The notes: generated by a model not told the origin, from the sequence alone. A stretch of DNA of 64,000 bases from an uncultured Methanobrevibacter sp. (GCF_902801725.1 NZ_CADCJB010000004.1:1-64000); one strand, 5' to 3'; shown: positions 7,532 through 36,800, counted from the stretch's first letter. Numbers and translations are program-made.

Positions 7532-8041
7532 TTAATCTACATAAACAACAAATTCATCCAGTTCTTTTCTTGGAGTTTCCCTTGGCTCAGCATTTCCATA
7601 ACCCAATGGAGTAAAGAGAACTGGCTCTTCATTTTCATCCAAGTTCAAAAATTGATGTGCTCTATTCTTCTTGAATGCACCAATATAACATGTTCCAAGT
7701 CCCACATCAGTAGCTGCAAGAATAATGTGATCCATCACTATTGTTGCATCAATGTCTGCAATGTTTTTGCCATCCCAAGGTCTGGTCCATGCCTTATCCC
7801 TTAAAGCCACAACACACAACACATAAGGAGCTTCAACAAACCATTTTGCAGCGTAGATTTCAGACAATTCCTGTTTATATTTTTTAGCATCTATTACAAA
7901 AACCTTAAATGGCTGAGCATTGACGCCAGTAGGTGCTATTGTAGCTGCTTTTAAAACATATTCAAGCTTTTCTTTTTCAACTTCCTTATCCAAATATCCT
8001 CTAACACTGTATCTTTCTTTAATTACATCAATAAATTCCAT
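7532..8041 (-). CDS. Nitroreductase family protein (FMN-dependent oxidoreductase)
   Basis: NAD(P)H- and FMN-dependent nitroreductase-like fold, 169 residues with the start chosen here. The family start MEFIDVIKERYSVRGYLDK, the flavin-contact segment PTGVNAQPF, the conserved GLGTCYIGAF and the C-terminal PLGYG are visible. An ATG exists five codons upstream (8056), but it lies within the ribosome-binding region: GGTGAT sits three bases before the ATG at 8041, which is the better start. The gene begins four bases after the citrate-synthase-like gene and is probably in the same transcript. The physiological substrate cannot be read from sequence. Confidence 0.9.
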   Translation of the reverse strand: MEFIDVIKERYSVRGYLDKEVEKEKLEYVLKAATIAPTGVNAQPFKVFVIDAKKYKQELSEIYAAKWFVEAPYVLCVVALRDKAWTRPWDGKNIADIDATIVMDHIILAATDVGLGTCYIGAFKKNRAHQFLNLDENEEPVLFTPLGYGNAEPRETPRKELDEFVVYVD

Positions 8042-8045
8042 TTTA

Positions 8046-8843
8046 TCACCTTCCATGATATTCTATATCATCAAGATCACAAAAACGTCTAAATTCCTTT
8101 TCATCCATCTTTTCTTCATTAATATGGGCTATAATTCCCGGAATCCTTCCAATAATAAATATTCCCAATCCCATTTCAGGGTCAAATCCCAAATCAGACA
8201 GAATTGCTGCATTTGCACCGTCGACATTCAATCTGATTCCTTTCTTTTCATATGCCAAATCTTCAACTGCCAATGCAAGTTTAATATGCGGCCCAATAAA
8301 GCCTTCCTTAACAACAATGTTCATCAGTTCATCAGCTCTTGGGTCAATATCATGATATCTGTGACCAAAACCGGGTATTTTTTCATCCGCCAAAATGTAT
8401 TCGCTGTAAATATCAATAGCCAAGCTTGCAATTTGCTTATTGTCAAGTCCTGAATCCTCAGTCAAATAAAGGGAATCTATCTTTGATTGATATAATTCCA
8501 TTGTTTTTTGAATTGCGCCTGCATGCTTATGGCCAAATGACAGCAATGCTCCTGCAACTGCAGAATTGATTGGGGAACCTGATGATGCAACCAGCCTTGC
8601 AGTTTGAGTGCTTGGAGGGGTGGCACCATGATCACAAAATGAGACTAAAACATGATTAAATATTTTTCCTTCCTTAATTGATGGCAATCTCCCCTTCAGA
8701 AGCAAATAGACCATGTCACTGAATCTGATTTTATCTATCAAATCTCTCTGATTATATCCTCGAGTAATAATCTTGTCCTTTTCGACTTTGGAAATGGCTG
8801 TCTTCAATGAATGGGGATTGACTCTAAAATTATTTTCATGCAT
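8046..8843 (-). CDS. Short citrate synthase family protein (citryl-CoA lyase type)
   Basis: The 265-residue protein is shorter than true citrate synthases (about 370-430). It matches the compact group annotated as citryl-CoA lyase or as the C-terminal half of ATP-citrate lyase. Visible are DHGATPPSTQTAR (70s), GHKHAGA (about 104-110), the citrate synthase signature GFGHRYHDIDPRAD with the catalytic His near 161, and NVDGANAAIL with the probable catalytic Asp near 208. It would make or cleave a CoA-linked tricarboxylate. It sits between a nitroreductase gene and a class I fumarase-like gene on one strand. Whether the substrate is citryl-CoA, methylcitryl-CoA or a related acid is not determinable here. 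Confidence 0.88.
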   Translation of the reverse strand: MHENNFRVNPHSLKTAISKVEKDKIITRGYNQRDLIDKIRFSDMVYLLLKGRLPSIKEGKIFNHVLVSFCDHGATPPSTQTARLVASSGSPINSAVAGALLSFGHKHAGAIQKTMELYQSKIDSLYLTEDSGLDNKQIASLAIDIYSEYILADEKIPGFGHRYHDIDPRADELMNIVVKEGFIGPHIKLALAVEDLAYEKKGIRLNVDGANAAILSDLGFDPEMGLGIFIIGRIPGIIAHINEEKMDEKEFRRFCDLDDIEYHGR

Positions 8844-8899
8844 GATTTTCTTATTCCTTTTTGATTAATTAAAAATAATATCAATAAACTATATAAATT

Positions 8900-9772
8900 T
8901 TACAATTTCAAACACGCAACTCTCGGTTCGACAAAACAGGAGGGTCTGACAGAAACTATTCTTACGCCACTCGCTCTTTGATTGCCAATATTTACATAAG
9001 AGCCTAAAACTGTTGTTTTTCCTCCAAAACCTAATGGACCTATTTGAGTCTCATTTAACCTAGATGTAACAAAGTCTTCAACTTCATTCTGGTCATCTAA
9101 ATTTCCATAAGCTATCGATTTCAGCAAAAGAGATGTCGCTTCAAAATGAGTTCTTCCAATCCCGATTGATGGAATTGACGGAGTGCAACCCAACATTTTT
9201 AAAGAATCCTCCAGCCAATCAACAGCAGTATTGATAACATTTGAAAAAGAGCGTTTATGATATGCCCTAAATGTCTTAGCCCTTATTTCAGGACCCCCTC
9301 CTTCAAGCAAAAAGTGAATATTTAATGTATCCGAAGAGATATCCCTTTTATAGGTTGATTCATCACCAGCAGAATCTATCAAAATTGGAGCCGGCTTAAG
9401 CATTCCCGGTTTTTCAAATAAACCTTGGCTCTGTTCAATCCGTTCTATTTCATTGCCCCTGACTGCCATGGGCCTTGCAGGGAGACTGTTCAATCCCAAT
9501 TCAATTCCCTGATGAATCTGACCAATAAGTTCACCGGTAATCTGTCTTTCCGAACCCAATTCAATTATAACATGAGCGATTCCCGTATCATCACATAAAG
9601 GAAATTGACTCTCCTGCGCGATTTCATAGTTTTTTAAAATCTGATATAAGCACCAGGAGGCATTTTCGTTGGTTTCTATTTTAATGGCTCTTTTCAGTGC
9701 TTTCAGTTTATCATCAGACAGCTTTGTTGAAGCTTCTATAATGGAATTGGAAATCTCTTCAATAATATCCAT
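8900..9772 (-). CDS. Class I fumarate hydratase-like alpha subunit
   Basis: Fe-S hydro-lyase of the class I fumarase/tartrate dehydratase alpha family, 290 residues. CDDTG (Cys60), LGCTPSIPSIGIG (Cys196) and cysteines near the C-terminus (279, 287) are candidate 4Fe-4S ligands. GGGPE near 158-162 corresponds to the GGG(S)E loop. The frame is open further upstream, but the start at 9772 (MDIIEEIS) is preceded by GTGATT and falls just after the stop of the neighbouring gene. The earlier in-frame start would lie inside that gene. No beta subunit is encoded in this window, although class I enzymes need the beta domain. The substrate may be fumarate (incomplete reductive TCA route) or another hydroxy-dicarboxylate. 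Confidence 0.87.
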   Translation of the reverse strand: MDIIEEISNSIIEASTKLSDDKLKALKRAIKIETNENASWCLYQILKNYEIAQESQFPLCDDTGIAHVIIELGSERQITGELIGQIHQGIELGLNSLPARPMAVRGNEIERIEQSQGLFEKPGMLKPAPILIDSAGDESTYKRDISSDTLNIHFLLEGGGPEIRAKTFRAYHKRSFSNVINTAVDWLEDSLKMLGCTPSIPSIGIGRTHFEATSLLLKSIAYGNLDDQNEVEDFVTSRLNETQIGPLGFGGKTTVLGSYVNIGNQRASGVRIVSVRPSCFVEPRVACLKL

Positions 9773-9776
9773 AAAA

Positions 9777-10679
9777 TCACTCAGGAATTGATAAATCACT
9801 GGAATCTTTTGGAGAGGAGATGGCTTCCGGATAATAAGTATCAATGACTCTTTTAACTAGTTTAACTTGTTTTATGCGTGCTAGTGCTTCTTTTTCAGTT
9901 GTATCCCAATTATGATTTGATGCAACTGAACCTCCAGTCTTGAGATAAACAGGAGAAGCCACCCTAATAAAATCAGGCACTTCATAATGCCTTATGAATC
10001 CTCCGGTTGATTTTGGATTTTCAGTATGCAGATCAATGGAAATGTCAATGGCATTCCTGATAGCTGCAATCATAGGAATTTGTAAATCTCGAACCGGATT
10101 TAAAGAATTAAGACCAATAGCTTCAAGCAATTTTGCTGAAGCAGGGTTGGAATGGCCCGCATGAGCAGATAATTTGAAATGAACATTTAAAGGAAGTTCA
10201 CCTGCCTTTCTCATTCTGTTTAAAACCCAAAGCAAACCTTCATCATAAAGCAAAATTCCACGAACTCCCAATCCGCAGGCTCTCTTAACATCTTCAATTG
10301 CATAGACTAAATTATCATAACCTCTTAATCTATAGCCAATCCTGCTTCCTTCTTTTGTGTGGACAGTGGCCGAAGTATCATAAGTTGCCCTTGGACCTAC
10401 AGCCAAAAACAGTTCGCAGCCATAATCAATAGCCAGACCGACCATTTCAGAAATCTCCTCGTCGGTCAACATCATTATTCCTTTAGTTTGAGTAACCCTA
10501 TGGATGAAAAGATCATTTTCGACTGATTCCCTTAAAAGGGCATCCATTGTCTTTGGTGATTGAATTCCAGGAACTTCAAAACGGTATTGTCCCCCATCCT
10601 TAAATCTTTTTTCCGATTTAAAATCACTGCATGTTTCTTCAATGCCAATTTGTTTAAGAAAATCTTTTGTATCATCCAT
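9777..10679 (-). CDS. U32-peptidase-like TIM-barrel protein, function unknown
   Basis: The 300-residue soluble protein reads as a TIM barrel, with successive strand motifs such as DYGCELFLAVGPRA, GVRGILLYDEGLL, NVHFKLSAHAGH and NAIDISIDLHTEN. It resembles proteins annotated as peptidase family U32, but I see no recognised protease active site, and many U32 members act in other chemistry. It lies five bases after the PrpD gene and five bases before the fumarase-like gene, so it is very likely co-transcribed and part of the same pathway. Conserved His and Asp residues (SAHAGHSNP, LHTENP) suggest a metal or carboxylate site. That is inference. Confidence 0.7.
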   Translation of the reverse strand: MDDTKDFLKQIGIEETCSDFKSEKRFKDGGQYRFEVPGIQSPKTMDALLRESVENDLFIHRVTQTKGIMMLTDEEISEMVGLAIDYGCELFLAVGPRATYDTSATVHTKEGSRIGYRLRGYDNLVYAIEDVKRACGLGVRGILLYDEGLLWVLNRMRKAGELPLNVHFKLSAHAGHSNPASAKLLEAIGLNSLNPVRDLQIPMIAAIRNAIDISIDLHTENPKSTGGFIRHYEVPDFIRVASPVYLKTGGSVASNHNWDTTEKEALARIKQVKLVKRVIDTYYPEAISSPKDSSDLSIPE

Positions 10680-10684
10680 GTTAT

Positions 10685-12094
10685 CTACTCATTTAATTTA
10701 TCAACAACAAACGCCATTGAATAATCTTCCAAATTATCAATAACAGTCAAATTTTTGACATCATAATATGGATTTAATTTTTTAAGCTTATCAATCAATT
10801 CCCTTAATTGGAACGGGTTTTCAAAATCCCCTTTTGGAAGTAAAGTTAAATTTTGGAACAGACCATTTCTAAATTGCTCATCCAATTTAATAATAACATT
10901 TGAAGGCCTTTTATCAGGATATAATGAATTCAGTTTCTCATCAGAAATCAGAATTGTTTTATTTGCTATATTTTTAATACTTTTTACAATATCAACACTG
11001 GAATAGTTATCCAAAAGACCGTATTCAATTAATTGGTTAATTTTATCAACACTGACTTCACCAACTACCAATGATATCGCTACGGCATAAGGCAAACTCT
11101 GTTTTAACTCTTCCAGATTCTTCGGATGGAAATTATTGTGTTCAGCTGCAATCTTATAGGTTTTAACGGCGACATTTTCGATGTGATTATATTCATCACC
11201 AATACTGGCTTTAATCTTTAATGCAGTATCGATTGAAGAATGAAGATGTCTGCAGAACGGATATTTCTTAAAGTAAATGTCCCTTACCCTTACTTTTCCA
11301 ACTTCCTTCAGTGCACTTTCCAGGGAAAAGTTCTCAGAATTAAAATCAGTATTATCATAAACCATTGTTTTTAAAAATCCTTCATCACCCTCAAATATTG
11401 TTTCACTACCAGTAAAACCATTTCGAGCCAACAATGCAGACAACAACCCATTATATGAAGCTTTTCCGGCATGCAATACTTTACCCATGGATCCTCCATG
11501 GTCTGATTCCAAAAGACCCGCAGCCTGAGTTCCACATAATCCTAATGCATGGACAATTTGTTTTTCATCAAGATCCAATAATTTAGATGCAACCGCACCT
11601 GCAATAAAAGTACCTATAGTTCCGGTTGTATGAAATCCTTTATTCCTATGCTCCGGATTAACCAATTTTCCAAGCAAGATTCCAACCTCATATCCTACGA
11701 TAACTCCTTCCAAGAATTCCTTTCCGCTCAAGTCATGACTTTGTGAAACTGCCAATGCTGTCGGAAATATGACAGCACCCAAATGAATTTGAGCACCCCT
11801 GTGACCATCATCCAGTTCAAGTACATGAGCTGCAACCCCATTTAAAAAAGCGGCACTCAGCATATCTGTTTTAGTTTTTCTACCTATGACTGATGCCTTT
11901 AAATTTAAATTTAAGTTTCCAGAAAATATCTCTTCAACTGTGTTGAAAGCTATATTTGAAGCATCTTCGGATGATCCTCTGTAGGTTACTCCAAAAAAGT
12001 CCAAAAAAGCGGCTTTTACAGTAGTGATGGATTCTACAGTTGCTTGTTCATACCTATAGTTTGAAATAAATTTAGAAATATTTTGTAAAAACAT
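10685..12094 (-). CDS. MmgE/PrpD family protein (2-methylcitrate dehydratase-like)
   Basis: The 469-residue protein is full length for the MmgE/PrpD family, which includes 2-methylcitrate dehydratase, cis-aconitate decarboxylase and iminodisuccinate-acting enzymes. Typical segments are LNGVAAHVLELDDGHRGA, HLGAVIFPTALAVSQ, GFHTTGTIGTF, HAGKASYNGLLSALLA and KKYPFCRHLHS. These enzymes need no Fe-S cluster. AGGTG lies five bases before the ATG at 12094. It is the first gene of the enzyme run that continues into the U32-like, fumarase-like and citrate-synthase-like genes. The exact reaction cannot be assigned, but a tricarboxylate or branched dicarboxylate substrate fits all neighbours. Confidence 0.88.
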   Translation of the reverse strand: MFLQNISKFISNYRYEQATVESITTVKAAFLDFFGVTYRGSSEDASNIAFNTVEEIFSGNLNLNLKASVIGRKTKTDMLSAAFLNGVAAHVLELDDGHRGAQIHLGAVIFPTALAVSQSHDLSGKEFLEGVIVGYEVGILLGKLVNPEHRNKGFHTTGTIGTFIAGAVASKLLDLDEKQIVHALGLCGTQAAGLLESDHGGSMGKVLHAGKASYNGLLSALLARNGFTGSETIFEGDEGFLKTMVYDNTDFNSENFSLESALKEVGKVRVRDIYFKKYPFCRHLHSSIDTALKIKASIGDEYNHIENVAVKTYKIAAEHNNFHPKNLEELKQSLPYAVAISLVVGEVSVDKINQLIEYGLLDNYSSVDIVKSIKNIANKTILISDEKLNSLYPDKRPSNVIIKLDEQFRNGLFQNLTLLPKGDFENPFQLRELIDKLKKLNPYYDVKNLTVIDNLEDYSMAFVVDKLNE

Positions 12095-12125
12095 AAAACA
12101 CCTATAATTAGTATATGTAAAAGGT

Positions 12126-12138
12126 ACTATTAAATAGT
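12126..12138. promoter_or_regulatory. 13-bp palindrome upstream of the PrpD gene
   Basis: ACTATTAAATAGT is a perfect dyad around a central A, about 32-44 bases upstream of the PrpD ATG. It overlaps the position expected for a TATA box (TTTAATAG on the minus strand). It may be an operator, or only a symmetric AT-rich promoter. Confidence 0.35.
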
Positions 12139-12186
12139 TAACTTACACTGTAAAACAATTTTTCAAAAGTGAATAAAAAAAATAAT

Positions 12187-12678
12187 TTAAACTGCTGGAA
12201 CTCCAGATAAGACCAGTACAATATGAGCCACTATAGCTGCACCATAATATGTTGCTGCAATAACCAGAACAGTTACAACAATTGCTTTCCAACCTAAAGC
12301 TTTGAATTCATCCCAGCTTTTACCCATTCCAATACCGACATATGCCAGGAATACGGTTACAATAGATAAAAGTTCTATTTTTGAAACATAATAAAGAACT
12401 ATCTTTGAAGTTGGCATTCCAGGAAATGCTACTATAATACCAATTATACTTATGTAAAGAATTGATGAAACATTGAATGGAAGTTCCCTTTCCAACCACA
12501 CACCTATAAGAGTGATTAACGATAGAATCCCCATACCGACTAAAGAATCTGAAATCGGATGCTTATATCCCAAATAATTACCAATTACAGTAATGACTGA
12601 AAATATTGCAAGCAGTAAAATCCAATTGAATATTCCATGAACTGAAACATTTTCCGAACCGTCTATCAAATCAGGCAT
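12187..12678 (-). CDS. Small membrane partner of DUF3100-type protein, copy 1
   Basis: The 163-residue protein has about five hydrophobic helices (about 16-34, 42-62, 70-86, 98-116, 130-155). Its start overlaps the stop of the upstream DUF3100-type gene by one base, so the two are coupled. It is nearly the same protein as the one at 13737-14225; for example the stretch HGIFNWILLLAIFSVITVIG is identical. The two-gene unit is probably a transporter or carrier for the carboxylates handled by the adjacent enzymes. That role is inferred only from location and membrane character. Confidence 0.75.
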   Translation of the reverse strand: MPDLIDGSENVSVHGIFNWILLLAIFSVITVIGNYLGYKHPISDSLVGMGILSLITLIGVWLERELPFNVSSILYISIIGIIVAFPGMPTSKIVLYYVSKIELLSIVTVFLAYVGIGMGKSWDEFKALGWKAIVVTVLVIAATYYGAAIVAHIVLVLSGVPAV

Positions 12679-13583
12679 TATTCATCCTCCTTTTTAACAA
12701 CAGAATCTTTTCCAATTTTAGGTTCCAGCCATTTATACATTCTTTCAGTTAATGGAAGTGCAACAAATATCACAATATATATTCCAACACAGAATGAAAG
12801 TAAATTACTGAATCCTGCAAATGCTTCTATTTGGGATTCCAAACCTGGAAATGCCGCAAGAGTCGGACCGATAGCAGCCGCATTCATACTGGCACTTCCT
12901 ACACCACTGGCCATAGCAAATGCATAAGGGTGCAACGGCAGGAAAGACAATGAAAATGTTACAAGGAAACTGATGAATATTGTACCAATTACAGTACCGA
13001 TGATAAATATGGCGAATACTCCTCTTGATTCAGGAGAATTGAATCCATATTTATCGACAACAACAGCAACATTCGGCTCACGACCAATTGAATTTGTCAT
13101 ACCAATAGCTTCTTCCTTAAATCCTAAAAGTAAAGCAACAGGGAGAATAAGAATTGTTGCCAAATGCCCCAATTCCTGTAAAATTAATGCAGGACCCATA
13201 TCAAAAATCAAAGAAATGGATTGGCCACTGGAAACAGCCAACTTTGCAATCAATACCCCAATAAAGAGCATCATTGCCCCCTCAGCAATACGGGCCTGTT
13301 TTCTTTGAATCCAAGTAATAGGCTTTGCCAAATAGAATACCAATCCTAAAACAATAGTATATATTAAAGGCATGATAGTGATAGCAACATCACCAGTTAA
13401 AGGAATTTTCTGAGTGCCTATCAATTCCGCAATGATTACCAAAATAAGTACAGTACCATGTAATCTGTAATCTCTCCATGGATTTTTCCTTAAAATCCGT
13501 TTATCCGTTTTTTCACGATAAATATGTTCAACTTGCCCATCATTATCTTTATTCGGAATAAGTACACACTCCCCACAAAGCAT
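12678..13583 (-). CDS. DUF3100-type multi-pass membrane protein, copy 1
   Basis: The 301-residue protein has a basic soluble N-terminus (about 1-45) and about eight membrane helices. Conserved features shared with copy 2 are TDxRILxKNPW, the amphipathic segment TWIQRKQARIAEGAMMLF, SIGREP and the glycine-rich ASGVGSASMNAAA loop followed by GPTLAAFP. I recognise the DUF3100 type. Family function is undescribed as far as I know, but the glycine/serine-rich re-entrant-looking loop and helix content suggest a transporter. The start at 13583 is an ATG without a good ribosome-binding site. A TATA element lies about 50 bases upstream. Confidence 0.78.
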   Translation of the reverse strand: MLCGECVLIPNKDNDGQVEHIYREKTDKRILRKNPWRDYRLHGTVLILVIIAELIGTQKIPLTGDVAITIMPLIYTIVLGLVFYLAKPITWIQRKQARIAEGAMMLFIGVLIAKLAVSSGQSISLIFDMGPALILQELGHLATILILPVALLLGFKEEAIGMTNSIGREPNVAVVVDKYGFNSPESRGVFAIFIIGTVIGTIFISFLVTFSLSFLPLHPYAFAMASGVGSASMNAAAIGPTLAAFPGLESQIEAFAGFSNLLSFCVGIYIVIFVALPLTERMYKWLEPKIGKDSVVKKEDE

Positions 13584-13627
13584 TAAAAATCAATTAAAAT
13601 GCTTAATAATATTACATTTCTTAAAAC

Positions 13628-13648
13628 ATATTATATAAATCATTAGTA
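13628..13648 (-). promoter_or_regulatory. Promoter of DUF3100 module copy 1
   Basis: On the minus strand ATACTAATGATTTATATAAT places a TATA box (TTTATATAAT) just after a TACTAAT element. It sits about 47-57 bases upstream of the ATG at 13583. The same TACTAAT-plus-TATA arrangement recurs before copy 2 at 15193-15209, so each module appears to have its own promoter, probably with shared control. Confidence 0.55.
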
Positions 13649-13736
13649 TCCAATCCACATAATTTCACAAAATATGAATTGGAATAAGAAAAAACAGATT
13701 AAAAATAACACAAAATGAGAATAAAAAGAGGAGCAA

Positions 13737-14225
13737 TCACATAGGAACTCCAGTCAATACCAATATTATATGAGCCACAATAGCCGAACCGAAATATGTT
13801 GAAGCTATAACCAACATTGTAATGATAATGGCTTTCCATCCGAGAGCTTTAAACTCATCCCAACTTTTTCCAATGCCAATACCAACATATGCCAGAAATA
13901 CTGTGACAATAGATAACAATTCAATTTTTGAAACATAATAAAGCACAGTTTCAGAAGTTGGAACTCCCGGAAAAGCTATAAAAATACCAATCAAACTTAT
14001 GTAAATGATTGAAGAAATGTTTAACGGAAGTCTACGCTCCATCCAAACACCAATTAATGTAATCAATGACAATATTCCCATTCCAATTAAAGAATCATAA
14101 ATCGGATGCTTATAACCCACATAATTACCAATAACAGTAATTACTGAAAATATGGCCAGCAGCAATATCCAATTAAAAATACCATGAGTGGATACATCAA
14201 TAGGTTCATCAATTAATTCAGACAT
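13737..14225 (-). CDS. Small membrane partner of DUF3100-type protein, copy 2
   Basis: The 162-residue protein has the same five-helix layout as the copy at 12187-12678, and most residues are identical (NWILLLAIFSVITVIGNY, KIELLSIVTVFLAYVGIG, GKSWDEFKALGWKAI). Differences concentrate in the N-terminus and a few conservative membrane positions. It is directly adjacent to its DUF3100-type partner (no intergenic base). The pair duplication looks like a tandem event followed by modest divergence. Confidence 0.75.
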   Translation of the reverse strand: MSELIDEPIDVSTHGIFNWILLLAIFSVITVIGNYVGYKHPIYDSLIGMGILSLITLIGVWMERRLPLNISSIIYISLIGIFIAFPGVPTSETVLYYVSKIELLSIVTVFLAYVGIGIGKSWDEFKALGWKAIIITMLVIASTYFGSAIVAHIILVLTGVPM

Positions 14226-15158
14226 TTATTCTCCCCCAACACCGTTTTCATCGTTTGACTCACTGCCTTTAGAAGACCTTCCAATTCTAGGTTCCAAAAA
14301 GTAATACATCTTTTCAGTGAACGGAATGGCAAGGAATATTACAATATAAATTCCGATAGAAAATGAAAGCAAATTACTGAATCCCGCAAATGCTTCAATG
14401 TTTGTTTCCAATGCCGGGAATGCTGCTAAAGTAGGGCCTAAAGCAGCGGCGTTCATACTGGCGCTACCAACACCACTGGCCATAGCAAATGCATATGGAT
14501 GTAATGGCAGCAATGTTGTGCTTAAACTTGCTAGGAAACTAATGAATACAGTACCGATCATAGTACCAATAATGAACAAGGCAAAAATTCCTCTTGATTC
14601 CGGAGAATTGAATCCATATTTATCGACAACAACAGCAACTTCAGGTTCACGACCAATGGAATTGGTCATACCAATAGCTTCCCTTTTAAATCCTAAAAGT
14701 ATAGCAACAGGAAGTGCTATAATAATTGTGGCCAAATGCCCCAGTTCCTGCAATAACAATGCAGGACCCATTTCAAAAATCAAATGCATTGATTGTCCGC
14801 TTGAAACTGCCAGTTTGGCGATTAATATGCCAATAAAAAGCATCATTGCCCCCTCAGCAATACGAGCCTGTTTTCTTTGAATCCAAGTAATAGGCTTTGC
14901 CAAATAGAATACCAATCCCAAAACCATCGAATAAAGCAACGGCATTATTGAAACTTCTACACCATTGGTTATCGGTATTTTAATAGGACCGATTAATTCA
15001 GCAATAATAACTAAAACAAGTACAGTACCATGTAATCTGTAATCTTTCCATGGGTTTTTCTTTAAAATTCTTCTATCCGTTTTTTCACGGTATATATGAT
15101 TAGTTTGATTATCATTATTAGATTTATCTGAAATAATACCCTCTCCCACCCAGCACAA
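14226..15158 (-). CDS. DUF3100-type multi-pass membrane protein, copy 2
   Basis: The 310-residue protein is a paralogue of the protein at 12678-13583, with the same eight-helix plan and the same RKQARIAEGAMMLFIG, SIGREP and ASGVGSASMNAAA motifs. It has an acidic C-terminal tail (SNDENGVGGE) not found in copy 1. The start is uncertain: the longest frame begins with TTG at 15158, but a GTG at 15149 followed by GGAGAGGGT is also possible. The homologous block starts only at about HIYREKTD. The TATA box at about 15193-15203 fits either start. Confidence 0.77.
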   Translation of the reverse strand: MCWVGEGIISDKSNNDNQTNHIYREKTDRRILKKNPWKDYRLHGTVLVLVIIAELIGPIKIPITNGVEVSIMPLLYSMVLGLVFYLAKPITWIQRKQARIAEGAMMLFIGILIAKLAVSSGQSMHLIFEMGPALLLQELGHLATIIIALPVAILLGFKREAIGMTNSIGREPEVAVVVDKYGFNSPESRGIFALFIIGTMIGTVFISFLASLSTTLLPLHPYAFAMASGVGSASMNAAALGPTLAAFPALETNIEAFAGFSNLLSFSIGIYIVIFLAIPFTEKMYYFLEPRIGRSSKGSESNDENGVGGE

Positions 15159-15345: not shown

Positions 15346-16617
15346 TTATAAATCCATTCTACAAAGTGGCTTTGATAGATGCCTCCTTGCAGAAACAGGT
15401 GTTTCATAAAATTCGGAATTTTTCAAACTACGTGTGATTTTAATAGGAACTTTTTTATCAGATTTAACTCTATTCCCACAACGTTTACATTTAAAACCCT
15501 TATTTTTACCTGCAGATGTCATACTTTTTCCACATTCGCAAATCGGATTTTTATATTCAACATCATTTAACTTAATAACCTGAAACTTCTCGATATTGAA
15601 TGTATTCTGTTCACCAATTCCCCCAAAGACTCGAATAATATCTCCAGGCCGTAAGTGGGAAACCGTTTTTCTGAAATTTTTTGTTGGCTCATATGCACCA
15701 CATTCAATCTCTCCTGACTTATCAGATATGAAAAAGAACATGTGCCCCCCATCTATAATCCTAGGCTTGTTTTTCACTTCACCAACAACCTCATAACAGC
15801 CGAACTGTTCCATCTCAGAAATGGACTCTGCCTTTTGGATATGCATGTCAGTGTGCTGATTGGTTTTGAAAATGCACCAATCGACAATAGGCTCACCCAC
15901 CTCAACAATTTCTTTTGCCTCTTTCAGCGCTTCGACATTATTGGATCTGATGCCGTATAAAACCGGACATGGAGTTTTCGGCTCTATTGCAATGTAATTT
16001 TCAGAATAGTCAATATTTTCAAAAGTATCGGGAAATGTCTTTTTATCCATCAGATAAACTGATTCATAATCAATCCGGCGTTTTGTTCCATAATTTTCAG
16101 CGCTTCTGTATGCAAGCAGTTCATAGGTATAATCAGACAAAGGAAGGCTGATGGCAGCTATTGATCCTATGATGCCTCTTCCCTTTTTGAATTTATGAAT
16201 TTCACATCCCACAGATTTCCCAAACTCTTCAGCCTCTTCGATTGTAATGAACTCATAAATTGCCCTGAATGCGTAGTTTTCCATTTTTTCAGTTATTTCA
16301 CCATCATAGAATATTACTCCAGGATTGGTATTGTCACAGTCAAACATGGATAATTTTTCGACTTCCTCCAATACAATTTGGCGGGCCAGACCTGCCTTGT
16401 CATTGTTTAAAATCTTTAAACTGACACCACCATTCCCGCGAGTTTTAAATCTTGCAAATGGATTCAACCTGATTAGTCTCGGATAGTCAACCAGTTCAAT
16501 TCCATTATCATTAAACTTATTGATAATCTGACTTGCCAAATAGGTAGTGCACATCCCGTCAGGGGAGTCCGTATCATCTATTCCGATATATAAATACTTA
16601 ATTACAATCACCTTCAA
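15346..16617 (-). CDS. tiaS: tRNA(Ile2) 2-agmatinylcytidine synthetase
   Basis: TiaS converts C34 of the tRNA(Ile) CAU anticodon to agmatidine so that it reads AUA. The N-terminus carries the catalytic start YLYIGIDDTDSPDGMCTTYLA. RLIRLNPFARFKTRGNGG follows, then an OB-fold region, and a C-terminal zinc ribbon (CECGKS ... FKCKRCGNR) near residues 358-383. About 415-423 residues is normal. The start is unusual: the longest frame opens with TTG at 16617 and GTG is at 16611, but the ribosome-binding site GGTGAT (16606-16611) would best serve the ATT codon at 16602 (giving x-KYLYIGIDD). It diverges from the regulator gene at 16673 across about 55 bases. Confidence 0.95.
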   Translation of the reverse strand: MKVIVIKYLYIGIDDTDSPDGMCTTYLASQIINKFNDNGIELVDYPRLIRLNPFARFKTRGNGGVSLKILNNDKAGLARQIVLEEVEKLSMFDCDNTNPGVIFYDGEITEKMENYAFRAIYEFITIEEAEEFGKSVGCEIHKFKKGRGIIGSIAAISLPLSDYTYELLAYRSAENYGTKRRIDYESVYLMDKKTFPDTFENIDYSENYIAIEPKTPCPVLYGIRSNNVEALKEAKEIVEVGEPIVDWCIFKTNQHTDMHIQKAESISEMEQFGCYEVVGEVKNKPRIIDGGHMFFFISDKSGEIECGAYEPTKNFRKTVSHLRPGDIIRVFGGIGEQNTFNIEKFQVIKLNDVEYKNPICECGKSMTSAGKNKGFKCKRCGNRVKSDKKVPIKITRSLKNSEFYETPVSARRHLSKPLCRMDL

Positions 16618-27312: not shown

Positions 27313-27690
27313 ATGAAATCAATTAATCTAAACAAAGACCTTAATGAAATATACACATTAACTGAATTCATCGAAAAGATAATTCAAAAAAAAGACTTTC
27401 AAATAGATTTGATGCTTGAAGAAGTTTTAGTAAACATTGTCAATTATTCAAAATGCGAATATATCACAGTTAATGCTGAATTTGAAAATTCAATCTTGAC
27501 AGTGGAATTTATTGACAATGGAACAGTATTTAACCCACTTTTAAAAGAAGATCCCAAATTCCCAGATTGTATTGAAGATGCTGAAATCGGAGGATTGGGA
27601 ATTTACTTAACAAAAAAACTGGCTGACGAACTGGAGTACAATCATATAAATGATGAAAATCACTTAAAAATTATTAAAAAAGTGGAATAA
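27313..27690 (+). CDS. RsbW/SpoIIAB-like serine kinase (GHKL ATPase)
   Basis: The 125-residue protein is a compact GHKL ATP-binding domain. The N box is LMLEEVLVNIVNY with Glu36/37, Asn41 and Asn44. The G1 box is IDNG (Asp68, Gly70), and the G2-like loop is EIGGLGIYL (93-98). Such proteins phosphorylate an STAS antagonist and hold a target in partner-switching systems. The stop overlaps the ATG of the following SpoIIE-type phosphatase gene by one base (TAATG), so the kinase and phosphatase are made together. No STAS protein is seen here, and archaea have no sigma factor, so the output is unknown. Confidence 0.88.
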   Translation: MKSINLNKDLNEIYTLTEFIEKIIQKKDFQIDLMLEEVLVNIVNYSKCEYITVNAEFENSILTVEFIDNGTVFNPLLKEDPKFPDCIEDAEIGGLGIYLTKKLADELEYNHINDENHLKIIKKVE

Positions 27691-29567
27691 TGAAACAAAA
27701 GCTAAAAAAAATATTAATACCATTCTTTTTGATGTTAGCTTTTATAGCTATCACAGAATCATTGGATATCCTTATGGATTTTGGAATATTCACTCCCCAT
27801 GTAGGGATGTTATTTGTTTTTGGAATACTTTTTGGACCATATGGTGCAATAGGCAGCGTCATGGCAAACATAGTATCCGATGTATATAACGGATACAATC
27901 CCATCATGATAATCTGTTCCGAAATTATTAGCTTTGCGATTTCCTGCCTGGCATATAAGCTTTGGTATTCAAGTTACAGAGGACATGAAATTACAAAGCC
28001 TAAATTAGACACTACTTTCCACTTAGGATTATTTTTATCAATTATGCTAATTTGCGGAACCATATATGCTGTTTTTCATGGAGAAATATTCCATTTAATT
28101 TATAAATCCCCTTTAGAATATATAATGCAGGTATACCTAATCAGTTTTGTTAACATTGCATTTGTTTTCGGAATACTACACATTTGGGTTTCCAAAAAAA
28201 TAGACTTCATCCACACTCCAAAAACACTCAAAAAACAGTTTAACAAGAAATTATACACAGCATTATTAATTTCACTAATCACAGTTACGGTTATCACAAC
28301 TGCATCATATTTTTTGAAACTAAATAACAGCATAATAATTGGCGAATTAATATTGCTTGCGATTCTGCTTTTTGCTTATTTGACAAAACCGGTACAATAT
28401 AGCGAAACTGAAAGTGAAGGAGATTCTGTGGTAGAGAAAATAATGACCATGTTCCTTCTGACAACATTATTTATTGTAGTCTTAGGCATATTGCAGTCAT
28501 TTATACCTGAAGCCCGCCATATTGTAAATATTGATTATATTGATAATTTTTTACCTGCAATGCCAGTAATTGCATTTGCAGATATAATAACCATATTATT
28601 CTTCATTCCAGGATTTAACATCATATTGTATGTTGAAAAGAAAGTAATCAACCCAATCAAATCATTTTCCGAAATTGAAGACTTTATTGCAGAAAACAAG
28701 AAAATAGAAGCTGAAGGATTGGTAAACCTCTATTCAGAATACATTAATGAAACAGATGAAATCGGAAAACTTGCCCGAAGTTACACAGATTTAATCAAAC
28801 ACAATAACAGTTATATTGAAAACATCCATGAAATTGAAGGTGAAAAGGAACGCATTAAAGCTGAACTGGATATTGCAACTAAAATTCAGGCATCAAACTT
28901 GCCAACCAAAGCCATTGAAAATGAAAATTATATAGTTGCCGGTTATTCAAAGCCTGCAAAAGAAGTAGGAGGAGACTTCTTTGATTATTATCATCTGGAT
29001 GATGGCAGACTAGTCATTGTAATAGGTGATGCATCAGGCAAGGGAGTTCCCGCAGCATTGCTTGCAACAATTACACAGGTTATGATTAAGCAGATTCTGC
29101 AGCACAACCGAGACCCTTCAAAAGTTTTATATTCACTTAACAATCAAATATGTGAAACCAATTCCGAAACAATGTTTATCACATTATGGGTTGGAATCTA
29201 CGACAGAAACACTGGAAAAATAACATTTTCAAATGCAGGACACAACCCGCCTATAATAAAGGATAATGACGGATACAAATATCTGAAGATAAATACGGGA
29301 ATTGTTTTGGGCATTATGGAAGACTTTGAATTCACAAATGAAGAAGTGACCTTTTCAGAGGAAATAATTTTATATACTGATGGAATAACCGATGCAAACA
29401 ATACCCAACAGGAAATGTACGGAGAAGACAGGCTTCTAAACTTTTTCAACAGACATGGTGCAGATAAAAATCCTATTGCACCATTATTAAAAGATATAGA
29501 TGAATTTACCGATGGTGAAGAGCAATTTGATGATATGACACTTGTTTACCTGAAAGACAAATCATAG
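27690..29567 (+). CDS. Membrane-bound SpoIIE/RsbU-type PP2C phosphatase
   Basis: The 625-residue sensor phosphatase has N-terminal membrane helices (about 10-30, 38-58, 68-92, 110-130, 145-165, 190-230), further helices at about 250-315, a HAMP-like/coiled-coil linker (about 320-395), and a C-terminal PP2C domain. Metal-binding motifs are VGGDFFDYY (Asp429) and IGDASGKGVPAALL (Asp447), with LYTDGITDA and FDDMTLVYL towards the end. It would dephosphorylate a phosphoserine on an STAS-domain antagonist, countering the adjacent RsbW-like kinase in response to a membrane or envelope signal. Confidence 0.93.
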   Translation: MKQKLKKILIPFFLMLAFIAITESLDILMDFGIFTPHVGMLFVFGILFGPYGAIGSVMANIVSDVYNGYNPIMIICSEIISFAISCLAYKLWYSSYRGHEITKPKLDTTFHLGLFLSIMLICGTIYAVFHGEIFHLIYKSPLEYIMQVYLISFVNIAFVFGILHIWVSKKIDFIHTPKTLKKQFNKKLYTALLISLITVTVITTASYFLKLNNSIIIGELILLAILLFAYLTKPVQYSETESEGDSVVEKIMTMFLLTTLFIVVLGILQSFIPEARHIVNIDYIDNFLPAMPVIAFADIITILFFIPGFNIILYVEKKVINPIKSFSEIEDFIAENKKIEAEGLVNLYSEYINETDEIGKLARSYTDLIKHNNSYIENIHEIEGEKERIKAELDIATKIQASNLPTKAIENENYIVAGYSKPAKEVGGDFFDYYHLDDGRLVIVIGDASGKGVPAALLATITQVMIKQILQHNRDPSKVLYSLNNQICETNSETMFITLWVGIYDRNTGKITFSNAGHNPPIIKDNDGYKYLKINTGIVLGIMEDFEFTNEEVTFSEEIILYTDGITDANNTQQEMYGEDRLLNFFNRHGADKNPIAPLLKDIDEFTDGEEQFDDMTLVYLKDKS

Positions 29568-30869: not shown

Positions 30870-33800
30870 TTATTTTCTTCTTTTAATGTTTACGCCTAAG
30901 AGTGCTAAAACAGCAATCAATACCAATATTGGATTACCGGTTTCATGTTTAGCCAAACCAGATTTAGAATAATCAGCCGGTTTTTGAGCAGTAACATTAT
31001 CAACTGGATGATCTACAATAACAGTAACCGTACCTGTTCCATTTGCAGGATAGTAGATATTTGTTTCATTGGAATACACTTTTACAGGATATGTTCCAGG
31101 CTTATAGTCTTTTGGAACTGTCCAAGGTATCTTACCCCTACCGTTGACGATATCAATAACCTTTCTAGTTCCGTCAGGCAATTCTACAGTAACTTTTCCA
31201 TTAAATGTGGATCCATCACGAGGAATAACCGTTATAGGAATTGTAACATCATCACCCAGTCTTGCAGTAACCTTACCTACTACAATATCAACTGGGATTT
31301 TTATTACAGTTATTGTTCCGTCACCTTCAGAAGGCAAGTATTTTTCATTTCCAGCAAATCTGACATGGTCAGGATATTTGCCCGGAGTGTAATCGTATGG
31401 AACAAACCAAGTTGTTTTTCCATTTCCGTTGATGACATTTACAACTTTAGTACTGCCATCAGGGAATCTTATTGTAACTTTTCCAGTGAAAGGCTTACCG
31501 TCATCTGCAGTTACCTTAATTGGAATAGTAACTTCTTTGCCTGCGAAAGTTGTCACATTACCAACGCTCACATGAGTAGGAATTGGTAAAACTGTAATTG
31601 AAGATGTATTAGTTGCAGGAATATGATTTCCATCAACAATTGTAGTCCAATTAACAAGATACTCACCGACAGGCAATTGATCAACAGGAATAATTCCATC
31701 AGGACCAACAGTACCTTCTGCAACCACTTTACCGTCTTTATCGTAAATCACATAAACGACATCAGTAGCATTAGTACTGTCATAATCCACCCTAATAGGG
31801 TCACCATAATATACAGTCACATCTTCACCTTCAACAAGTGAAGGAGCAGGTAAAACTGTAATTGAAGATGTATTAGTTGCAGGAATATGATTTTTATCAA
31901 CAATTGTAGTCCAATTAACAAGATACTCACCGACAGGCAATTGATCAACAGGAATAATTCCATCAGGACCAACTGTACCGTTTACAATAGGATTGCCATC
32001 CTTATCAAAGATTTGATAAGTAACTTCAGCGGCATTAGTACTATTGTATGGAACTTCAATAGGATTGCCATAATCTACTGTCACATCAGTTCCGTTGACA
32101 AGTGAAGGAGCAGGTAAAACCTTAATGCTGGAAATGTTATTTGCAGGAATGTGATTTTCATCAACAGCATTATTCCAGTAAACAATGTAATTTCCAACAT
32201 CCAATTGCTTAACAGAGATAGTTCCATCAGGACCTACAGTACCGTTAGCAACCATATTGCCCAATTCATCATAGATTTCATAGGAAACTTCAGTGGCATT
32301 AGTACTATTATAATCCACATTGATAGGATCTCCATATACCACAGTAACATTTACTCCATTTACCAATGAAGGGTAGTTTACAGTGACATTTTCACATGAA
32401 TACTTATTGTTTGAAGTGTTCCTATCTTCCTGTGTGGAGTTTGCGACAACCACGTTTTCAACTTTGCCGAATGCCAAAGTTTTTACGGTAATTGTTAATT
32501 TAGCTATATCTCCTTTATTTAGAGTGCCGACATACCAAATTCCTTCATCCTGATTATATACTCCATCGCCTTTAATGTCGGTAATTTTCACGTTACCTGT
32601 CATATTTTCAGTAACATTTACATTAGTAGCGACAGAAGGACCTAAATTAGTAATGATAATAATGTATGTTATTTCATCACCAACAGTGACTTTTGTTTTA
32701 TCCACAGTTTTATTGATTTTCAAATCAACAACAGGAATTGCAGTAATATTGGTACTGTTAGAAGCTCCAGTTGTGTTTTCAGTTGAATTGACAGTAGCAA
32801 CATTAGGTAATGTTCCATTAGTCAAAACAATTACATTGAAACTAACACTGAAACTGGAACCGTTTTCTAAATTGCCAATATGCCAAACGATTGTCTTGCC
32901 ATCGAAATCACAAGCCACAGTAGTGCTTTTACCATCAAATTTAAATGCATCATCCAATACATCAGTAATATTTACATCAGTAGCGTTGGAAGGACCCAAA
33001 TTAGTAACGGTAATAGTGAAAGTAACATTATTACCAACCCTTACAACATCAGGATTTGCGGTTTTTATGATTTCAAATGCAACGGCAGGCAATACTATAA
33101 CAGGAATTTCGCTTGAAACGTTAGTATTATTTTCATTACAGTTTGCAACAGCGACGTTTTTGTAGATACCATTCTTAGTAGCATTAACAATAACATAAAC
33201 GCTTTTAGTTTCACCTTTAACCAATTCTGGAATTGTCCAAGTGACTTTGTTACCATCCCTTTGACCGTTGTTGCCCACTTCCATAATGTCAAATACAGTC
33301 ATTATATCATCACTTATAACAACATTGGTTGCATTTGCAGGACCATTGTTTGTTATGTTAATAATAAATCTGATTAAATCACTGACATTTGCATTTTCAG
33401 TTAAATTAGTGGATTTCACAATAGTCAAATTAAGTGGCTCAACATTAATCTTTGTAGTATTTTTCACTTCAGTCCTATTCTCATTACAAGTGACATTTAC
33501 CGCATTAGTTATTGCACCAATACCTCCGGTACGGACAACAACATAATACCTGTGAATATCATTGGCATCTAACTTAGTTAACTTCCATGAAATAACACGA
33601 GTAGACGGATTATAAGAATAACCTTCCGAAGCAATATCCTCAAAGATCAACTCTTCAGGCAATTGGTCGCAGATTGTTAAATTGGTAGCTGCCACATTAT
33701 TGAAATTTGAAACAACAATTGTGTAGTTTACTAAAGAATTGTTACCTATAACTGTAACATTGGCTGTCTTATTGATATTCAAAATGATATCATAAACTTC

Positions 33801-36800
33801 AACATCATCCTGAGCCTTAACTTCAGTATCGTTTTCTTTAGAAGTTACGGTTGCATAGTTGGTTAAAGTTTTGGCAGAAGTTACGTTTGTGCGTGCAGCA
33901 ATCCATAATTCAACAACTTCCTTGCTGTTCAATTTTGAGATATTCCATTTAGCACCGTTATTATATTGGCCAAGATAAGTAACCTGAACCTTTTGATTTT
34001 TCCTGACACCTGCATCGACAAATGTGAGGCCTTCAGGCAGCTGGTCAATGACAATCACATCAGTTGCATTTCCCAAATCGTCGTTACCTACAACAATGGT
34101 GAAGTTTACAACAGTATTGTTAGCAACAGGAGAAACGTCAACTTTTTTAGTAATGTTTAAAACTACAGGAACAACTTCAATGGAAGCATCATCATTCCTT
34201 TCTTCAGGAATTTCATCTGAAATAGCGCTTGCAACGTTAACTAGTGTACCTTCTGCGGTAGTGTTAACAAGAGCAACAACCCATAATTTAACATATGAAT
34301 TTTTAGCAATTTCGGAAATATCCCATTCAATTTCAGTATCCTCCTGAGGATAAGTCAGATTAAGGGTTACATCTGCACGGTAGGCTGAAGTTTGGCCAAG
34401 CTCAACAGTTATTGTTTTACCATCTGAAAGAGATATGCTGTTACCATTGCAGTCAATAATTCCACATTCAAAGCTCAAACCTGAAGGCATTCTATCCTTA
34501 ACAACTACATTAGTCAGCTTAATTTCTGAAGTATTATTTACTATTATTGTGTAATTAACCAAAGTATTGTTGGTAACCACTGTAACATTAGCCTCTTTAG
34601 TAATGGATAAATCTGCCGGAATGTAAGTAATATCAGTTTTATTTTTAACTTCAGTGCTGTTTTCCTCACAGGTCACATTAACGTTGTTGGTCAATATAGT
34701 TTTTACATCAGAACCGAAATTAACGCGAACAGAAACCCATAATTCGACAACAGAATTTCTGGCCATTTTGGAAATATTCCATTGGACAAATTCCCTATAT
34801 CCCGGAAGGTCACCTTTATTCCATTTAGCAACAATTCCCGGAGTAACAACTCCAGCGTCTTCAACTGTCAAGCCTTCAGGTAATACATCAACAACAGTTA
34901 CATTATTAGCATCAATGCCATGACCGTTTGCATTTGTATTGTTAACAGTTATAGTAAAGTTCACAAGATTATTATAAGTAACTTCAGAGACATTTGCAGT
35001 CTTGTTGATTTCTAAAATAACCGGACCAACATTTACAACACCAGATGCATTGGCCTTTGTAGCGTTTTCATCACAGTAAACAGTAACATTATTAACCAAT
35101 GGACCCAATCCGTTTGTGCGAACTTGAATCCATAAGATTACCTCTTTGCCGGCAGTAATATTGGAAATACTCCATTCAACACCACTGCTGCGAGTAGTGT
35201 TTGTTATGTGAGCACCATTAGCATTAACCACACCACATTTTTCAAAAATCAATGTGGCCGGCAATATATCAGTCAAATTAACGTTGGTTGCATTTCCTGC
35301 ATCAGCAGTATTTTTTACAACGATTGTGAAGTTGACTAAAGAGTCATTTAATGTGACATGGACATCTGGAGTTTTAGTGACGTTTAAAACCACATCATAA
35401 ATTACAAATGAATTTTGATTTCCAACCTCTTTGTAATACCTGTCCTCATTATGGACGGCATCAACAGTATATTTGCCTGCGTTAAGACTATTGAATTCAA
35501 TAGTAATTGATCCATCTGTCTTAGTTACAATTAGACCAGAGTCATCAGGAAGTGCAGATAGAAGACCGTTATTATTAGTAGGCTCAATACCTCCAGTAAG
35601 GTTATAGATAACACCAGTTTCATTTCTGATTATGATATCTATAAGCTGAGCATCCTCATAAGGGCTTTGCCAAATACTATCTGCATTTTTAAAACCATCT
35701 GTAGGATAAGCATAATCTCCAGTATTGAAGGATTTTAGAGCACGGCCCTTACTATCAGCAGAAAATTCACATTGAATATTATACAACTTAATTGAATCGC
35801 TACTACCGTCATTCCAAATTGCATTAGCAATGTTATCATTAGCCTCCATGGTAATATTGACAGTGACTTTAGCTAAAGCATAAGTCTCATTACCTTTAAT
35901 ATCGATTGTGATTGCTTTGCTGTGTGCTTGGTTTCTTTCAAATAATGCATTCGCAATATTAAAACCAGTAGCATCCTTTGTTTTATAAATAGCAGACCCA
36001 TTAGTTGCATTGTTATCGTTGAAATAAGTTACATTGATATCAATATTACTAGCCTCAGTGAAAATCGCACCACCATAAAAAGCAGTATTTCCAGTGAAGT
36101 TTGCATAATCAATATCCTGATCAGGTGCAAAATAGTAAATTGCGCCACCATTTTCAGTAGCAGCATTATTGGCAAAGTTAGAATTATTTAAAATTCCATT
36201 AGATCCAAATATAGAACCATAATCAGATCCCCAGTATATAGCACCACCATTATTAGCAGAATTACCGGTGAAATTAGAATCAATTACATTATTCCAATCA
36301 TCTTCAATAAGTATAGCACCACCATTATTAGTAGCAACATTCTTAGTGAAATCAGAACTACTTACAGGTGTAGCATAGTTCAAATCGAGAGCACCACCAT
36401 TATTAGCAGAATTACCGGTGAAATTAGAATAGGAAACATTACCAAATTCACCTTCCCAATAAATAGCACCACCATTTCCCTCAGCAGAGTTAGAAGTGAA
36501 ATCAGAACCAGAAACAGTACCAGAAGCACCATACCATTTAATAGCACCACCATTATTGGTAGCATTATTCAATGTAAAATTTGAACCGGTTACAGTACCA
36601 TAATCACCATCCCAATAAATAGCACCACCATCTTCCTCAGCAGAGTTAGAAGTGAAATTAGAATCAACTACCTCAGAATCATCTTCTACATTATAGATAG
36701 CACCACCCTTAGTAGCATTATTATTAATGAAAACAGAACCTGTCACAGAAGCAGTCCACTCTAAATAGATAGCACCACCATCTCCCTCAGCAGAGTTAGA

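Follow-up and report, generated by a model that had tools for sequence, protein, structure and literature searches.

A PrpD, U32-like, fumarase and short citrate synthase gene set conserved in Methanobacteria: a candidate pathway to the methanofuran side chain

Methanofuran and the closest described systems

Methanogenesis begins when CO2 is taken up by the coenzyme methanofuran. In M. thermautotrophicus this coenzyme carries 4,5-dicarboxyoctanedioate (1,3,4,6-hexanetetracarboxylic acid, HTCA), in M. smithii the 2-hydroxy form of HTCA, and in Methanosarcina and Methanococcales glutamates are found in place of HTCA. The tetracarboxylate end of the methanofuran of Methanobacteria has been known since the 1980s, and we know of no genes assigned to it; the enzymes MfnA-MfnF make the core, and to our knowledge the PrpD, U32, fumarase and citrate-synthase families include none of them. 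Here we describe an operon with genes for an MmgE/PrpD-family enzyme (PrpD), a U32-like barrel, a second fumarase alpha-like subunit (FumA2) and a short citrate synthase (CS) in a stretch of 64,000 nucleotides from an uncultured Methanobrevibacter sp. (NZ_CADCJB010000004.1:1-64000; hereafter the window, with coordinates counted from its first letter). With moderate confidence we propose that these four proteins, together with a fumarase beta-like subunit encoded elsewhere (FumB2), form the biosynthetic pathway to the HTCA side chain in Methanobacteria, the product, the substrates and the order of steps being as we infer them below.

The methanofurans share one core, to which any of five different side chains is attached, and this furan-tyramine-glutamate core is the product of the known Mfn enzymes (PMC11365854). 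MfnA is MTH1116, and an inventory made in 2011 estimated that seven further methanofuran proteins were unknown (PMC3087415). The gene set described here occurs in methanofuran-making Methanobacteria and is linked to this biosynthesis through FumB2, which adjoins mfnA.

Among single enzymes, the citryl-CoA lyase (Ccl) of PDB entry 6hxp resembles the short CS along nearly its whole length (E=5.6e-79) and is from Hydrogenobacter. The short CS exceeds the cut-off of the NF004866 citryl-CoA lyase model (245 bits; Table 1) and belongs to subfamily PRK06224. Its residues H72, H161 and D208, which we take to be the citrate-synthase catalytic His/His/Asp, are invariant across the four families in which synteny was compared (Methanobrevibacter, Methanothermobacter, a family labelled f3, and Methanothermus). 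The archaeal operon differs, however, in having no citryl-CoA synthetase, and the role of the short CS, the sole PF00285 gene in the window's genome, is probably condensation with another 2-oxo acid.

The methylcitrate cycle (PrpC/PrpD/AcnD/PrpB) is similar to the operon in that a citrate-synthase-type condensation is followed by a PrpD-type dehydration. The operon differs from it in that the CS is of the short citryl-CoA-lyase form, PrpB and aconitase are missing, and PrpD falls below the cut-offs of the 2-methylcitrate dehydratase equivalogs (NF042438, 48.5/950 bits; NF006943, 38.9/575 bits; TIGR02330, 28.9/458 bits). Both the N- and the C-terminal MmgE/PrpD domains pass the Pfam cut-offs, and the nearest solved relatives of this protein, encoded by a single gene in the window's genome, are B. 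subtilis IRG1 (5.7e-57), iminodisuccinate epimerase and cis-aconitate decarboxylase. PrpD is regarded as a putative dehydratase of a citrate-like tertiary alcohol.

A four-enzyme core and its distribution

The gene order PrpD-U32-FumA-CS is syntenic across the four families, from Methanobrevibacter to Methanothermobacter, f3 and Methanothermus, which is far beyond chance and bears out the view of the initial annotation, made from the sequence alone, that the locus holds a conserved and apparently undescribed gene set of di/tricarboxylate type. Its description of tightly spaced PrpD, U32-like, FumA, short CS and nitroreductase genes with two DUF3100 pairs on one strand was also confirmed at every position: all lie on the minus strand, with spacers of 5 base pairs (bp) between PrpD and the U32-like gene, 4 bp between the latter and FumA2 and 56 bp between FumA2 and the short CS, and with an 11 bp overlap of the short CS and nitroreductase genes. 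TATA-like A+T boxes, read by eye upstream of each DUF3100 gene, PrpD and CS, suggest that the locus need not be one transcript and may be transcribed as several. Because PrpD, the U32-like gene, FumA2 and the short CS stay together while DUF3100 pairs, the nitroreductase and a small protein with one transmembrane segment turned up, with the queries used, in Methanobrevibacter-type loci only, the core is composed of four enzymes. The co-occurrence that the initial annotation had proposed to look for in other genomes therefore holds for these four and fails for the lineage-limited DUF3100.

The U32-like gene was found in 38 of the 41 genomes of a first set. The phylum set comprised 152 genomes (132 non-Methanosphaera and 20 Methanosphaera), 129 of which have the gene, that is, 129/132 of the former and 0/20 of the latter. 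All three non-Methanosphaera misses are genomes 67-72% complete; among the absences in Methanosphaera (genus g18) 17 were listed and the other three follow by elimination. Members of the FumA, FumB, CS and PrpD families were counted in 17 genomes, 11 operon carriers and six Methanosphaera: every carrier has two FumA, two FumB, a short CS and PrpD, whereas the six Methanosphaera each have a single FumA and a single FumB and lack both CS and PrpD. Since Methanosphaera keeps FwdA, MfnB and MfnA, loss of the set together with formylmethanofuran dehydrogenase was rejected, and a role in the side chain fits better than one in core synthesis. On this reading Methanosphaera appears to make the methanofuran core but not the extra acid. 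Nor was PrpD found in M. jannaschii and M. acetivorans, whose genomes served as controls and whose methanofurans are not known to carry HTCA.

As to the U32-like protein, its place as a conserved core member stands, but the match to Peptidase U32 (PF01136) behind its label is below threshold (16.0 bits against a gathering cut-off of 22.4) and a PDB sequence search returned no relative, for which reasons the identity of a U32 peptidase was dropped. The AlphaFold2 model is a TIM barrel (pLDDT 87), and its best Foldseek matches, at TM ~0.5, are class II aldolases (E 5e-8, rmsd 6-9) and the U32 protein Mk0906. The protein is considered a putative C-C bond-forming step. Two other archaeal phyla were searched and yielded a single distant relative (L047), whose 3.9 kb locus lacks the other genes of the set. 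Further distant relatives (32-40% identity) are present at L128:8001-8936, L129 about 8001-8822 and L131:7914-8852; those in Thermomicrobium and Streptomyces adjoin enolase-superfamily and sugar ABC genes, and one on an Enterobacter plasmid lies within an aminotransferase/MFS cluster.

FumB2, mfnA and a proposed side-chain route

FumA2 has the PF05681 domain and three conserved cysteines of a class I fumarase alpha subunit. These residues (C60, C196 and C279) are invariant in the four families and are putative Fe-S cluster ligands. The protein scores below the fumarase equivalog NF004885 (114.6 vs 276 bits). Its listed open reading frame (ORF) begins with TTG at 9844, and the alignment of homologues favours ATG at 9772 as the likely start. 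The motifs LGCTPS and CF are found in Methanobrevibacter and close kin (window 8900-9772) and LGC(T/S)PC and CC in Methanothermobacter, Methanothermus and Clostridia; the former variant may be tied to the hydroxylated side chain of M. smithii methanofuran.

In all 17 genomes, Methanosphaera included, canonical fumarase alpha and beta subunits are encoded elsewhere. FumB2 is a second fumarase-beta gene, forming a clade separate from the canonical beta subunit. It is unlinked to the operon (contig C8, 24859-25344, in the window's genome) and shares its presence or absence in 17/17 genomes: as carriers have two FumB and Methanosphaera one, FumB2 belongs to the gene set and is the missing partner of FumA2. 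In trees, the FumA and FumB of related clusters in gut Clostridia group with FumA2 and FumB2, FumA2 being apart from canonical FumA, and the two subunits therefore belong together; the FumA tree includes one spurious long row from L172, which leaves this grouping unaffected. In the window's genome FumB2 adjoins genes for a 2-oxoacid, probably 2-oxoglutarate, oxidoreductase, and an ATP-grasp gene resembling succinyl-CoA synthetase beta is located near it on the opposite strand (L132:4795-9360).

The link of the set to a known mfn gene is provided by FumB2. It immediately follows mfnA in Methanothermus, two Methanothermobacter genomes, f3 and genome G053, overlaps it by 4 bp in two families (L133 and L136) and is 0.5 kb from it in genome G059. 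The identity of mfnA is based on the TIGR03812 model of the tyrosine decarboxylase MfnA (550-572 bits vs a cut-off of 299.4). In genus g1, FumB2 shares some neighbours with that of G059 while mfnA is located elsewhere, and the linkage therefore looks ancestral.

The tie to mfnA thus argues for coenzyme biosynthesis rather than for the tricarboxylic acid (TCA) cycle or catabolism, and the distribution of the set agrees with that of the side chains given above. The enzyme classes, by the established chemistry of their families, suit the joining, dehydrating and reducing of polycarboxylates. A route to HTCA by condensation, dehydration, formation of a second C-C bond, hydration or dehydration, and reduction would be chemically sensible. 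CS would join acetyl-CoA or a C5 acyl-CoA to 2-oxoglutarate, giving a homocitrate-like tertiary alcohol, which PrpD would dehydrate. The U32-like barrel, with its possibly aldolase-like fold, would either form the second C-C bond, with pyruvate or another three-carbon unit as the partner, or prepare the C5 donor, and FumA2 together with FumB2 would remove or add water at a 2-hydroxy acid position. The double bonds would be saturated by reductases, one of which may in Methanobrevibacter be the nitroreductase, and the finished acid would be ligated to the glutamyl end of methanofuran.

Table 1. Position and family assignment of the genes of the locus in the window
Feature	Position	Strand	Remarks
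DUF3100 membrane protein, module 1	14226..15158	minus	PF11299 287 bits
Small membrane partner, module 1	13737..14225	minus	abuts DUF3100 gene, zero gap
DUF3100 membrane protein, module 2	12678..13583	minus	PF11299 283.6 bits; own TATA-like box
Small membrane partner, module 2	12187..12678	minus	1 bp overlap with DUF3100 gene
MmgE/PrpD-family enzyme, core gene 1	10685..12094	minus	PF03972 235.8 bits and PF19305 78.1 bits, both above cut-off
U32-like TIM-barrel enzyme, core gene 2	9777..10679	minus	65-91% identity across Methanobacteria
Class I fumarase alpha-like hydro-lyase subunit FumA2, core gene 3	8900..9772	minus	PF05681 167 bits
Short citrate-synthase/citryl-CoA-lyase-type enzyme, core gene 4	8046..8843	minus	NF004866 408.9 bits
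Nitroreductase-family flavoprotein	7532..8056	minus	PF00881 96.4 bits
Small protein, one predicted transmembrane segment	7192..7530	minus	kept behind nitroreductase in Methanobrevibacter

Clostridial relatives, rival roles and neighbouring genes

A scan of named genomes showed that gut Clostridia also have the U32-like gene, with a product 66-68% identical to the window protein. Eleven clostridial loci hold PrpD (10/11), a PF15617 C-C bond lyase (11/11), FumB (11/11) and FumA (10/11), some of the contigs being metagenome bins in which the host label is not proof of origin. Clusters with U32-like, C-C_Bond_Lyase, FumB and FumA genes include L115, L117, L119, L122 and L124-L127, with PrpD in all but L115. 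The clostridial clusters thus share the U32-like protein, PrpD and FumA/FumB with the archaeal set and differ from it in that the PF15617 lyase replaces CS and in their extra genes, which are of AKR and phosphonopyruvate-decarboxylase type or, in some loci, encode a 2-hydroxyacid dehydrogenase. Many of the 11 loci also contain ATP-grasp genes, and several are surrounded by glycan genes, the neighbours comprising glycosyltransferases, a flippase, GalE/GlmS and ATP-grasp ligases. We know of no function for these clusters.

Several points weigh against the assignment to the HTCA side chain. The main reason for caution lies in the gut Clostridia, in which methanofuran synthesis would not be expected: the enzymes may work independently of methanofuran, and the chemistry is therefore wider than this coenzyme. 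In addition, the linkage to mfnA concerns fumB2, one pathway gene, and not the four-gene operon, and it has been lost in g1, the genus of the window itself. The loss in Methanosphaera counts as a single evolutionary event, the sampling of other archaeal phyla was sparse, and the side-chain distribution is as reportedly given by Leigh in 1984, White in 1988, Bobik in 1987 and Allen & White in 2014. The methanofuran idea, which looked weak once the clostridial homologues were found, is kept because FumB2 sits beside mfnA. Tentatively, it seems quite possible that an undescribed five-protein polycarboxylate pathway is common to both domains, making the methanofuran side chain in Methanobacteria and a glycan-attached acid in gut Clostridia, with the C-C bond-forming enzyme swapped between families (short CS or PF15617 lyase).

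The set could also serve chiefly to supply a free cytoplasmic solute or counter-ion, either HTCA itself or a similar polycarboxylic acid, attachment to methanofuran being secondary or absent. Free HTCA was reportedly described as a major solute in M. thermautotrophicus by Gorkovenko, Roberts and White in 1994, and the distribution of the gene set would fit such a role, but FumB2 is linked to mfnA, which belongs to methanofuran synthesis, and we consider a chiefly free acid unlikely; this and the methanofuran assignment are not mutually exclusive. To a similar degree we doubt that the acid decorates a cell-surface polymer, as the products of the clostridial clusters probably do. There PrpD, the U32-like protein, the C-C lyase, FumB and FumA lie among glycan and ATP-grasp genes, whereas the surroundings of the archaeal operon showed neither glycan nor ATP-grasp genes, FumB2 sits with mfnA, and Methanosphaera lacks the set despite having a pseudomurein wall.

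The initial annotation suggested that an acid of the citrate, methylcitrate, itaconate or citramalate type is imported and broken down (or made and exported), the DUF3100 transporters being membrane modules dedicated to this. In favour of that reading, most Methanobrevibacter loci have DUF3100 pairs next to the enzymes, the short CS resembles citryl-CoA lyase by score, and the MmgE proteins closest to PrpD are of decarboxylase/epimerase type. However, in the deeper families, Methanothermobacter, Methanothermus and f3 (the f2, f3 and f4 loci), no such pairs were found next to the four enzymes, and they are lineage-limited neighbours outside the core. Moreover, the operon lacks a CoA-transferase or acid-CoA ligase, bacterial DUF3100 genes often occur with M20 aminoacylase-type genes, and the set is near-universal in the class, thermophilic autotrophs included, as expected of core biosynthesis. 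A catabolic operon with DUF3100 import, quite improbable on these grounds, was dropped as DUF3100 is not co-conserved. The incomplete reductive TCA route, offered there as a partly anabolic alternative on account of the fumarase-alpha and citrate-synthase families, is very improbable and was dropped too, because a separate canonical fumarase exists in 17/17 genomes, the operon FumA and FumB2 form distinct extra groups, and Methanosphaera, without the set, keeps the canonical enzyme.

The two-gene DUF3100 module has the same layout in bacteria and in one haloarchaeon, where it often lies with M20 aminoacylase-type genes or, in the haloarchaeal copy, with an amidohydrolase gene, neither of which is beside the window copies; the DUF3100 proteins of these loci (L176, L177, L178, L179 and L180) are perhaps transporters for N-acylated compounds. 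In some relatives (e.g. L050:1617-2903) a single long ORF is seen in place of the pair, and a Foldseek search with the product of this long ORF (model pLDDT 70) gave no match with E under 0.001. The nitroreductase is a candidate ene-reductase and, with the window query, was not found in the loci of Methanothermobacter, Methanothermus and f3, only in those of Methanobrevibacter type. The same restriction was seen, with the query used, for the small protein behind it, which has no Pfam or NCBIfam match. A gene read by eye as TiaS (window 15346-16617) adjoins the operon in most loci, including those of Methanothermobacter and Methanothermus. The window further encodes a 625-residue SpoIIE-type phosphatase, in a methanogen (27690-29567), and an adhesin-like surface protein of 2114 residues with DUF11/PMP repeats (30870-37214).

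The assignment to the HTCA side chain would name five candidate genes for this part of methanofuran. It would also explain the lone fumarase-alpha gene of the operon, the partner of which was found next to mfnA, and it predicts a shorter methanofuran in Methanosphaera. It would likewise mark out a pathway of Methanobacteria that the chief methanogens of gut and rumen have.

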